The notes under the pieces are model-generated. The model made no database searches and had not been told where the DNA came from. It saw only the letters and a program-made list of their open reading frames with translations. The translations under genes were made by a program, and so were the position numbers. Of a stretch of 64,000 nt of DNA, positions 7,764-60,888 are shown in pieces. The stretch comes from Hyphomonas sp. (GTDB lineage Bacteria > Pseudomonadota > Alphaproteobacteria > Caulobacterales > Hyphomonadaceae): assembly GCF_013823385.1 (NCBI RefSeq), contig NZ_PNMA01000005.1, forward strand, positions 1 through 64,000, written 5' to 3'. Each line of letters begins with the position of its first letter. The stretch's first letter is position 1.

Positions 7764-7865
7764 CGCCCGGACCTCGTCCGGGCGTGTCCGTATTTGTCCG
7801 GAAGTGTCCGGATTTGTCCCTTATCTGTCCGAAACTGTCCCGGTGTGTCCCTTCGGTGACAGCTT
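7764..7865 (+). repeat. TGTCC array with 10-bp period and leading hairpin
   Basis: The pentamer TGTCC begins at 7785, 7795, 7805, 7815, 7826, 7836 and 7846, with a variant CGTCC at 7775. Every step is 10 bp except one of 11. The array starts with a perfect 9-bp hairpin (CGCCCGGAC at 7764-7772, GTCCGGGCG at 7776-7784). Spacers recur (GGATT, GAAAC). The same arrangement, inverted, occurs at 34778-34894, and a short version lies at 26300-26345. It occupies the ftsZ-lpxC gap. Function not known to me. Confidence 0.75.
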
Positions 7866-8026
7866 TTGTAACAGAAATGTCCGTTTATTTTCAGCGTACT
7901 AGAACCAACACCCGCCCCATTTTGTAACAACACGCAATATCCCGTGTTTTGATGCTGGCCCCCTCCCTTGCCAAATGAATTCCGAAGGCTGCGCCAGGTG
8001 CAGCCGCAGTTCAGGTTGTTGGTTCA

Positions 8027-10496: not shown

Positions 10497-14284
<3,788 letters not shown>

Positions 14285-26242: not shown

Positions 26243-27169
26243 ATGAAACGCGCTCTTTTTGCCTCCGCCGCCCTTTTCTGTGCCGCCTGTGTCACGGCCA
26301 GTCCGGTTTTGTCCAAAACTGTCCCGGAATTGACCGGGCCTGTCCCTGGCTGGCGCGCAGTTGACCCGGAAAATCTCATCCTTGTCACGCTGGAAACCGG
26401 CACCGTGGCGATCGAGCTTTTCCCTGAAGCGGCCCCCGCCCATGCCGCCCAGATCCGCGAAGCCGTCCGCGAAGGCTTCTATGACGGGGAGTATTTCTAC
26501 CGCGTGGTCGAAGGCCATGTCGCCCAGGCCGGCCGCGAATTCGACATGGCCATCGCCGCCTGGCCCACCCTGCCCTTTGAGGCCGAACGCGAAGCCTCTG
26601 CCGAGGGCTTTGCCCCGCAGGGCAGTGCAGACCTTTACGCGCAAGAAGTTGGCCACAGACAAGGCTTTGCGGTTGGCCGGGAGGGGGATAGCGAATGGCT
26701 TCTCAACTGCCCCGGCGCCCTCGGCATGGCCCGCGACACAGATCCCGCCAGCGGCTCCACCGAGCTCTTCATTCCCCTCCAGCCGCGCCGCTATCTTGAC
26801 CGCAACTACACCGTCTTCGGCCGGGTGATCGACGGGATGGAGTTCATCCACCGCCTGCCCCGCGTTGATCCGGCCACGGAAGAAGAAACCAACGCCCTGA
26901 TGGGCGAAGACGCCGAGCTTGCCCACCAGATCAGCCAGTATCGCCGCTCGAAACTGGCGGATAACCAGATCCAGTCCGCCCGGATGGCCGCAGATATCCC
27001 CGTGGACAGCCGCCCGGCGTATGACGTCATGATGACGCCCTCTGCCGAATGGGAAGCCCTCAAAACCTCCAAGCGCGACTATGCCGGCATCCCCGCCCTC
27101 GCCTATACTCCGCCCAAGGTGCTGGACGTCTGCTCGCTGCCGGTGCCTGCTCGGCGGGCGGGCGAGTGA
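26243..27169 (+). CDS. Exported cyclophilin-type peptidyl-prolyl isomerase
   Basis: Predicted periplasmic prolyl isomerase of 308 residues. The N-terminus MKRALFASAALFCAACVTAS is a signal peptide, with a possible lipobox (CAAC). The cyclophilin domain runs from about residue 45: VTLETGTVAIELFPEAAP, YFYRVVEGHVAQAGREF, ALGMARDTDPASGSTELFI and FGRVIDGMEFIHRLPR. A C-terminal extension of about 90 residues follows. Oddly, codons about 20-35 fall on a 10-bp TGTCC array that also occurs in two non-coding places in the window; the peptide it encodes is an exposed linker between signal and domain. Confidence 0.85.
   Translation: MKRALFASAALFCAACVTASPVLSKTVPELTGPVPGWRAVDPENLILVTLETGTVAIELFPEAAPAHAAQIREAVREGFYDGEYFYRVVEGHVAQAGREFDMAIAAWPTLPFEAEREASAEGFAPQGSADLYAQEVGHRQGFAVGREGDSEWLLNCPGALGMARDTDPASGSTELFIPLQPRRYLDRNYTVFGRVIDGMEFIHRLPRVDPATEEETNALMGEDAELAHQISQYRRSKLADNQIQSARMAADIPVDSRPAYDVMMTPSAEWEALKTSKRDYAGIPALAYTPPKVLDVCSLPVPARRAGE
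26300..26345 (+). repeat. Short TGTCC array inside the cyclophilin gene
   Basis: TGTCC starts at 26310, 26320 and 26341, with variants AGTCC at 26300 and TGACC at 26331, so steps are 10, 10, 11 and 10. Spacers GGTTT, AAAAC and GGGCC match those of the larger arrays. The 10-bp period is not a multiple of three, so coding alone does not explain it. Confidence 0.55.
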
Positions 27170-34777: not shown

Positions 34778-34894
34778 TGACAGAACGCGGACAAATCCGG
34801 ACAGTTTTGGACAGGCCCGGACACTCCATGGACAAATCCGGACAGTTTCGGACAAATCCGGACAGTTCCGGACACGCCGGGACAGGGCCCGGCG
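34778..34894 (-). repeat. TGTCC array with 10-bp period and leading hairpin, minus strand
   Basis: On the plus strand GGACA begins at 34789, 34799, 34809, 34819, 34830, 34840, 34850, 34860, 34870 and 34880: ten units, all steps 10 bp but one of 11. Read as TGTCC on the minus strand, it is preceded by a perfect 7-bp hairpin (CGCCGGG at 34875-34881, CCCGGCG at 34888-34894) and ends in TGTCA, as the array at 7764 starts with a hairpin and ends in TGACA. It lies between divergent genes. Confidence 0.8.
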
Positions 34895-59994: not shown

Positions 59995-60888
59995 GTGTCA
60001 TTGGAACGCGACAGGGAGAGCACCACCGGAAACTCCGGAGGCAAGGAACTCGCCAGCTTCGGTAACCTGATAAATTACTGGGCGCAGGGCCCGGGAGGCC
60101 AATCGGTGCGGGCTGAGCAGGTGTTCACCGCCATACAGGCGGAGATCATCCCGAGGCTCGTCCTCGCCAGGCAGAGTTATCAACGAACCCGCCCTGCCCC
60201 TTCGCTCTTACCCCACCCCATTTCGGACGCCGACAGGGAAGTGTTCCTTGAGCATGTGCTGCAGGGCGGCGCCGCCGAAGCCGCGGCGCTGGCCAGGGGG
60301 CTCATTGCGCGCGGCACACCTGTGGAGTCCGTCTTTGTCGATCTTCTGGCATGGTCTGCGCGGCGGCTCGGCGAATACTGGACTGAAGACCTCGCCACCT
60401 TCACCGACGTGACCATCGCCCTCTGCCGCCTGCACGAGATCCTTCATCAGGTCAGCGAGGCGAGCGCGCCCTCTTCAAAACAGGCGGCGCTCTCAGCCAA
60501 CTCCATCCTGGTCAGCAGCGCGCCGGGCGATCAGCACGTGTTTGGGGCACTCATGGTCGCCGAAAGCTTCCGCCGTGACGGCTGGTTCGTGCGCTGCGAA
60601 CCGGGGAGCGACGCGGATACGCTGCGCACGGCGGTGGCCAGGGAATCGTTCAATGTCGTGGGGCTGTCCTGTGCGTGCGACCGGGACCGGTCGGACCTTT
60701 CGGACACGATCCGGACACTCCGTACAAATTCCATCAATCCGGAAACCATCATTATGGTTGGCGGACGCCTGTTTTCCGAACATCCCGAGCTAGCCGGAGA
60801 GGTGGGCGCCGATCTGCTGGCTTATGACGGGGCATCGGCGGTTGAATTGGCACGGAATAGGTTGGCAAACACGAAGGGTGACTGCTAA
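59995..60888 (+). CDS. ppaA: B12-binding antirepressor PpaA/AerR
   Basis: Cobalamin-binding regulator that antagonises PpsR/CrtJ in response to light or oxygen. GTG 59995 is chosen since GGGAGG precedes it by 5 nt (GTG 59920 and ATG 59938 are open in frame); it gives 297 residues. The B12 domain at about 165-290 contains GDQHVFG (the lower-ligand His motif DxHxxG), VVGLSCA and IIMVGGRLF. The helical domain before it includes YWTEDLATFTDVTIALCRLH. ppsR starts 40 bases downstream; the pair is probably one transcript. Confidence 0.9.
   Translation: MSLERDRESTTGNSGGKELASFGNLINYWAQGPGGQSVRAEQVFTAIQAEIIPRLVLARQSYQRTRPAPSLLPHPISDADREVFLEHVLQGGAAEAAALARGLIARGTPVESVFVDLLAWSARRLGEYWTEDLATFTDVTIALCRLHEILHQVSEASAPSSKQAALSANSILVSSAPGDQHVFGALMVAESFRRDGWFVRCEPGSDADTLRTAVARESFNVVGLSCACDRDRSDLSDTIRTLRTNSINPETIIMVGGRLFSEHPELAGEVGADLLAYDGASAVELARNRLANTKGDC

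Follow-up and report, generated by a model that had tools for sequence, protein, structure and literature searches.

What element occupies the gap between ftsZ and lpxC in a Hyphomonas genome (G000; 4,179,865 bases in 172 contigs), where a perfect hairpin is followed by seven copies of the pentamer TGTCC set about one helical turn apart? A first-pass annotation of the 64,000-nucleotide stretch analysed here (the window) had offered two readings, a phased protein-binding array or an RNA acting as a protein sponge. We therefore re-read the window, searched related genomes for the repeat and compared its sites between species. The features of the window are the following.

7764-7784, plus strand: perfect 9-bp hairpin with a 3-nt loop (CTC), 3' of ftsZ, read from the sequence
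7785-7850, plus strand: core array 1 in the ftsZ-lpxC gap, seven TGTCC units at steps of 10, 10, 10, 11, 10 and 10 bp
7851-7882, plus strand: downstream phased arm of array 1, with TG at +11 (TGACA, 7857), +21 (TGTAA, 7867) and +32 (TGTCC, 7878)
26290-26366, plus strand: degenerate in-gene array of eight phased units, by direct reading; the exact-word part is 26310-26345
34778-34788, minus strand: arm of array 2, opening unit TGTCA (34782-34778), at +11 relative to the final core unit
34789-34884, minus strand: core array 2, ten TGTCC units with eight 10-bp steps and one 11-bp step

Phased TGTCC arrays in the window

Re-reading the sequence confirmed what had been described for the ftsZ-lpxC gap, seven TGTCC with one 11-bp step behind a perfect 9-bp hairpin, and for an inverted ten-unit array 27 kb away. 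The short array reported near 26300-26345 was found where claimed and proved longer once degenerate units were allowed. The 10-bp step that had been given for the arrays holds for their cores but not for the degenerate flanks, which run at ~10.5 bp. Nine three-unit TGTCC matches are present in the window, compared with none across 100 dinucleotide shuffles. By our own gene calls, array 2 occupies a divergent gap between a 221-aa ORF (minus strand) and a 171-aa ORF (plus strand), neither of which has a Pfam match at E 0.001. The in-gene array lies in the 5' portion of a gene (26243-27169) for a cyclophilin-type isomerase and reads, in order, TGTCA, AGTCC, TGTCC, TGTCC, TGACC, TGTCC, TGGCG and TGACC. 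Array 1 has counterparts in G042, G022 and G015, which carry TGTCC arrays, and in G046, which carries a TGCAAC grid. In addition, two-unit TGTCC pairs, 10 and 11 bp apart, occur at 11357-11371 (plus strand) and 60702-60717 (minus strand); these may be incipient or decayed arrays, or chance.

The hairpin, which the first-pass annotation had taken as part of a shared array design, belongs to the ftsZ-lpxC gap alone and not to the array family, because 3 of 118 arrays have a perfect hairpin of at least 8 bp directly next to their first unit, and all three are this one locus in three species. The hairpin at this locus lacks a T-run and is conserved with paired changes across Hyphomonas species (G022, G015, G046 and G043); in G043 and G046 it is present without a TGTCC array there.

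A dispersed family in a few Hyphomonas genomes

TGTCC at exact 10-bp steps constitutes a dispersed family in four Hyphomonas genomes, with weak traces in two more. The genome of the window contains 146 three-unit matches (62 + 84) and none to the reversed pattern. Among 41 genomes (25 of the genus including G000, and 16 others of the order), three-unit matches were found only in G000 (146), G015 (150) and G022 (183), and a four-unit search of ten genomes, four of which are also in the 41-genome set, added G042 with 17 matches and gave none in the other nine, including G046. Relaxing the word to TGWCM across 42 genomes of the genus returned 176 three-unit matches in G000, 190 in G015, 212 in G022, 98 in G042, 18 in G043 and 11 in G052, compared with 0-3 in the remaining 36 (0 in G046) and 0-6 for the reversed control. 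The genomes in which the arrays were found belong to a few marine budding bacteria. A four-unit scan of a genome collection returned at least 113 stretches; among the 80 listed, nine belong to PHEH01 (G022), two other records appear twice and the remaining ones once each. The same scan of viral sequences returned at least 120 stretches. No description of these arrays was found among open-access papers. The annotation had staked its reading on further copies and on a conserved phase, and both were found, the family being genome-wide and the phase being kept in relatives.

Two other kinds of repeat were seen during these searches. At G042:C9:126855-126879, three TGACA words at 10-bp steps fit TGWCM on both strands, and the 1+1 TGWCM matches in several non-array genomes may be sites of the same kind. 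A second repeat family consists of a hairpin of the GTTGGAGTTTT..TGGAGTTTTCCGnAAAAAACTCCAACGG type with TGGAG at ~11-bp steps (L329, L353, L354, L357 and L358 in G015, L397 in G000 and L368 in G043); in the named G015 and G000 loci it lies directly 3' of a TGTCC array.

Helical phase of the cores and flanking arms

Phasing and placement were examined in sampled stretches of G015 (40 stretches, 800 kb), G000 (41, 776 kb including the window), G042 (16, 309 kb) and G043 (20, 400 kb); those of G015, G042 and, except for the window, G000 were selected around arrays, and those of G043 were evenly spaced. In G000, G015 and G042, the next TGTCC within 40 bp lies 10 bp away in 426 cases, 11 bp away in 63 and 21 bp away in 26, and any other distance accounts for at most 14 cases. 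Beyond the last exact unit, the dinucleotide TpG recurs at +10/11, +21/22, +31/32 and +42. Periodograms over 118 arrays place the TpG period at 10.55 bp downstream and 10.35 bp upstream, with peaks of 198 and 119, respectively, compared with a largest value of 52 among 300 nulls, and the phase persists for ~50 bp. These periods are those of the B-DNA repeat, and phasing at ~10.5 bp is a signature of duplex DNA rather than RNA. At 10.5 bp per turn, the 10-bp core drifts ~17 degrees per unit off a strict single face.

The downstream arm also carries a wave of G+C content with a period of 10.7 bp and a peak of 459 (null mean 52.5, maximum 117, from 500 samples at other gene 3' ends), a strength that suggests bending or wrapping of the arm. 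On the upstream side the highest GC peak (158) is at 9.7 bp, off the helical repeat. Among dinucleotides, TG has the strongest downstream periodicity (198, compared with 74 for its complement CA), whereas upstream TG (119) and CC (120) share the top and CA reaches 63. The much stronger phasing of TpG than of CpA, seen on either side, makes a head-to-tail layout look likelier than a dyadic one.

Conservation at matching loci and growth by substitution

Comparison of 51 G015 arrays with the sampled G000 sequence found both flanks colinear for 35, and in 34 of these 35 gaps a same-strand array is present. Twenty-six of the gaps were short enough for alignment; in these, 98% of pentamer positions are identical (549/562) compared with 61% of spacer positions (269/444), and the flanks stand at 1489/2059. 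The corresponding values are 362/366, 321/363 and 802/978 for G042 and G000 (14 of 15 gaps with an array), and 201/215, 136/214 and 463/703 for G042 and G015 (8 of 9). These shared-position figures are ascertained, since the stretches of G000, G042 and G015 were chosen around arrays. Of five matching gaps of G015 arrays in the sampled G043 sequence, three were read: the first contains three in-register TGTCC, the second has degenerate units in a row (TGTCA, TGACC, TGTCA, TGTCC) and the third, ftsZ-lpxC, has no TGTCC array. Unit number varies between species, partly by whole 10-bp units.

The spacers are less constant than the words. GGATT fills 28 of 98 spacers in the first 21 of the 41 G000 stretches, and the commonest spacers of G015 include TGATC and CGATT (12 each of 172) and CGTTT. 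Spacers inside one array are mostly unlike each other, indicating that the units are not simple recent duplicates.

Arrays also lie within genes, among them trmD, amgK (APH family), phoD, an HlyD-type gene and a gene for an Mrp/ParA-type NTPase. The phoD genes of the four array genomes and of G043 align without gaps, and where the array genomes have TGTCC, G043 has TGTCC, CGTCC, CGTCC and TTGCC in register. The ungapped alignment and the near-words in register show that the phoD array grew via point substitution with no need for insertion; a transposed or inserted repeat would leave an empty site, and at phoD, the one array examined in this way, G043 has no gap but one TGTCC with near-words. 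Among G046 sequences, only a 46%-identical homologue and a fragment of phoD were found. The amgK array encodes TFLDKTGQNRT, which is near the peptide of relatives among the 75 of 120 proteins inspected, indicating that the array was written largely through codon choice.

A different word on the same grid in a sister genome

G046, which lacks any TGWCM three-unit match, carries TG[C/A]AAC (TGMAAC) at 10-bp steps. G046 contains the pair TGCAAC-N4-TGCAAC 20 times, compared with 0-3 times per genome in the 41 others of the genus, and the reversed control occurs 0 times or, once, 1 time; some of the 20 pairs are chance (L495). The signal came with the longer word, since a three-unit search for TGCAA in 42 genomes gave two single matches (G046 and G019). 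Each genome has at most one pair that mixes TGTCC with TGMAAC. The G046 assembly is a draft in 520 contigs; 52 kb of it (11 pieces, two chosen for TGCAAC) plus the loci were read, and these 52 kb contain no TGTCC-N5 pair, compared with 182 in 776 kb of array-enriched G000.

Identity to the window is 88.5% over 3.2 kb for G046 and, over ~2.4-2.5 kb, 91.4% for G042, 84.2% for G022, 83.6% for G015 and 81.8% for G043. The tree groups G046 with G000 and G042 (support 99/99), and G046 with G042 at 88/87; G015, G022, G043 and G052 branch outside this group in a mutual order that the tree does not settle. Because TGTCC genomes lie both inside and outside the group of G046, the simplest history is that TGTCC gave way to TGMAAC along the G046 branch.

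TGTCC and TGMAAC share one type of grid, and several loci have them on the very same one. In the ftsZ-lpxC gap, G046 reads TGCAACGAAA TGCAACGAAC and retains the neighbouring spacers GTATT and CGGTG. Fourteen loci were examined (13 from G046 and one from G042). Long G046 matches were obtained for L467, L483, L503, L508, L509 and L495, and the first five of these six comparable loci lie on TGTCC arrays of G000 or G015; the sixth, L495, is a coding match without an array, and its word is also present in other genomes. L507 gave a partial match only, and six further G046 loci gave none. In pairwise alignments with G000, G046 words fall on TGTCC starts at ftsZ-lpxC (2/2), L503 (2/3) and L508 (3/4, the fourth lying outside the array), and off them at L509 (0/2) and L483 (0/2), where the site alone is shared. 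The L509 words align in a three-way comparison but not pairwise, so that this coincidence depends on the alignment. Leaving out L495, TpG follows the second word at +10 in 11 of 12 G046 loci, at +20/+21 in 8 + 3 and at +30/+31/+32 in 2 + 7 + 1.

G042, which is otherwise a TGTCC genome, has a single TGMAAC array, in trmD (L481), with the word at 43, 53 and 74. Its TpG dinucleotides at 43, 53, 63, 74 and 84 occupy the same positions in G000 and G015 without gaps, and the TGTCC at 33 and 95 of G000 have no counterpart in G042. The encoded peptide changes from VRKCPDLSKTVQEVS to VQSCNEMQQTETALK. The trmD array of G042 may reflect an early switch or, alternatively, a recent exchange with a strain like G046.

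Placement on genes and chromosome

Gene calls were made with our own codon-usage script, by which 85% of the DNA is coding, and the placement set comprises 118 arrays from three genomes, partly at the same loci. Thirty-one arrays overlap gene calls (22 antisense and 9 sense), 85 lie between two called genes and 2 were unplaced. Intergenic arrays are found in convergent gaps in 28 cases (15.2 expected), in tandem gaps in 45 (43.6) and in divergent gaps in 12 (26.2). Of those in tandem gaps, 27 run along the gene direction and 18 opposite. Flanking 3' ends lie within 60 bp in 52% of cases (23% expected) and 5' ends in 16% (24% expected). The excess at 3' ends and in convergent gaps, together with the deficit in divergent gaps, is the pattern of a signal that is allowed outside promoter regions and not that of an operator.

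The 46 four-unit places in G015 divide into 25 on the plus and 21 on the minus strand, with a gap coefficient of variation of 0.99 compared with 0.97 for random placement. A link to replication was considered and rejected, given this random-like rather than regular spacing and, by eye, no strand pattern relative to GC skew. The idea that arrays lie behind terminators was likewise dropped, because a simple terminator occurs within 60 bp upstream of 8 of 87 arrays, compared with 103 of 762 gene 3' ends that carry one within 100 nt.

A proposed duplex-DNA site read from one helix face

Replacement of the word at the same spacing in a sister genome, combined with one word per helix turn, points to a protein reading one face of the DNA. 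Chances seem to us about even that each array is a duplex-DNA site of this kind, read by a presumed lineage-variable protein. The protein-binding reading offered at the outset is supported by steps of 10 or 11 bp, by flanking TpG at 10.35-10.55 bp, by the drift of spacers where pentamers are kept and by sites at matching loci in relatives. Under such a scheme, a cooperative, sequence-specific protein would bind head to tail along a core in which a word specific to the lineage, beginning with TpG, recurs 3-10 times at 10-bp steps. The reader would touch TpG once per turn and prefer, depending on the lineage, certain bases at the three or four positions that follow, weaker TpG units at ~10.5 bp would extend the site some 50 bp on either side of the core, and the downstream arm would be bent or wrapped. 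Sites would accumulate where DNA is free to vary, namely at gene 3' ends, in convergent gaps and in loosely constrained codons, with arrays growing through point substitution on the grid. When the specificity of the reader shifts, words would be rewritten on the TpG grid, as TGTCC may have been to TGMAAC in G046. The likeliest role would be that of a REP/BIME-like site for chromosome structure or supercoil handling at gene ends, rather than that of a promoter switch.

A broader proposal, to which we would give roughly one chance in three, is that the TpG grid constitutes a helical address code, in which a clade-specific word stands at matching intergenic and genic places and is rewritten in a sister. 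If true, it would give bacteria a parallel to the rapid co-evolution of a DNA reader with its scattered targets. A family whose sites stay put and in phase while the word differs between close species would show, in a testable way, how a binding specificity and its numerous targets evolve jointly; which factors organize chromosomes at gene ends, and whether protein-coding DNA yields to a signal at the DNA level, could be tested as well. Hyphomonas neptunium is a budding model organism in which chromosome segregation and the CtrA network have been investigated, according to the available parts of two reports (PMC6650430, PMC7200025), and with such a laboratory model, direct fishing for the reader is feasible.

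Alternative explanations

The arrays could be uptake-signal-like sequences, that is, arrays favoured by the receptor for DNA uptake during natural transformation, propagated because uptake followed by recombination is biased towards them, with words that differ between species as dialects, as in Neisseriaceae. This explanation, which we consider unlikely, accounts for the dialects and for the permissive placement. The DNA uptake sequences (DUS) of Neisseriaceae, as described in the available part of one study, have dialects, permissive intergenic sites, intragenic copies and about 1900-6000 copies per genome (PMC3630211). Permissive placement and in-gene copies parallel DUS, as do the species dialects of a dispersed word (TGTCC in G000, G042, G015 and G022, and TGMAAC in G046). 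Copy number is, however, far lower: about a thousand or more copies would be expected, and the three-unit matches number 146, 150 and 183 in G000, G015 and G022, with 46 four-unit places in G015. Furthermore, DUS are single words rather than helical arrays, and no open-access paper joining Hyphomonas, natural transformation and competence was found.

The shape of the downstream arm raises the idea that the arrays are strong gyrase sites, with the gyrase C-terminal domain wrapping the phased arm and sites at 3' ends relieving transcription-driven positive supercoils. The E. coli gyrase motif is 130 bp long and includes two 47-bp flanks in which GC content has a 10.75-bp period, and gyrase sites are enriched downstream of highly transcribed operons, as the available part of the source reports (PMC6379681). 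The downstream GC wave of the arrays matches this periodicity over ~50 bp, and the preference for 3' ends and convergent gaps agrees with it. An exact word at exact 10-bp steps, replaced by another word in a sister, nevertheless clashes with degenerate indirect readout. In addition, symmetry about a cleavage site is absent, since the GC wave is unequal, being strong on one side and weaker and at 9.7 bp on the other, TpG exceeds CpA in phasing on both sides and there is no clear dyad. We consider gyrase sites quite unlikely.

An ordinary transcription-factor operator, of the MraZ type or of the OmpR/PhoB type, would share the architecture of the arrays, and OmpR/PhoB-type proteins bind direct repeats of the form pentamer-N5, as found here at one-turn spacing. 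Upstream of mraZ (L453-L462), ten Hyphomonas genomes have, by eye, three CCCA(T/C) words at 10-bp steps, a conserved MraZ-type box. This box (CCCAT/ATGGG) is alike in array and non-array species, and no TGTCC array was found upstream of mraZ in the ten genomes, two of which have a single TGTCC. MraZ itself was rejected as the reader, its own box being ATGGG where the arrays use TGTCC or TGMAAC. In Mollicutes, the MraZ box is given as (AAAGTGKN3)3 in the available part of the account (PMC5282649). PF00486 proteins number 10-13 per genome in six genomes, and no array-clade-specific group stood out in the score list, inspected by eye. Divergent promoters are avoided, and the arrays are generally not at promoters, yet single arrays do precede genes (e.g., L508/L408). 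An operator of this kind is very improbable in our estimation.

Slippage, tandem duplication or a functionless mobile repeat could explain why the number of units varies from species to species, partly in steps of a whole 10-bp unit, but a neutral repeat is made highly improbable by spacers that mostly differ within an array, by pentamers kept far better than spacers and by the substitution growth in phoD and the word change in trmD, both of which are ungapped. Finally, we give hardly any credence to an RNA element in which repeated UGUCC, or GGACA on the opposite strand, acts in 3' UTRs as a sponge, Rho site or part of a terminator: it fits the preference for 3' ends and the small same-strand majority in tandem gaps, but 18 of 45 tandem-gap arrays run opposite, antisense orientation accounts for 22 of the 31 arrays within genes, the units are phased as in duplex DNA, G is not scarce in the array core, few arrays follow a simple terminator, and the spacer GGA content on which the sponge idea drew is not kept in G015 (TGATC, CGATT, CGTTT).

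Comparison with known systems

REP and BIME elements are dispersed, mostly extragenic and near gene 3' ends, and the arrays resemble them in all three respects; REPs, however, are palindromes, whereas the arrays are direct repeats with substitution growth in phoD. MraZ boxes share with the arrays a short word repeated at 10-bp steps, but they comprise three units of another word at the mraZ promoter, whereas TGTCC arrays are found genome-wide, have up to ten units and lie mostly off promoters. The STAR elements of staphylococci are likewise interspersed intergenic direct repeats with variable spacers that expand and contract at stable loci (PMC3532100), although STAR loci differ between staphylococcal species and neither helical phasing nor a word switch is described for them in the available part of that report. 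The motif of gyrase, like the strong gyrase site of Mu, shares with the arrays a GC wave of ~10.7 bp over ~50 bp and a location downstream of operons; in the part of the source at hand, it is degenerate and symmetric, whereas the arrays have an exact word and a mainly one-sided wave (PMC6379681). DUS, like the arrays, are dispersed short words with permissive and intragenic placement and species-specific dialects, but they are thousands of single words for which uptake has been shown and helical arrays are not described in the available part of the account (PMC3630211), whereas the elements reported here are tens of arrays recognized from sequence.
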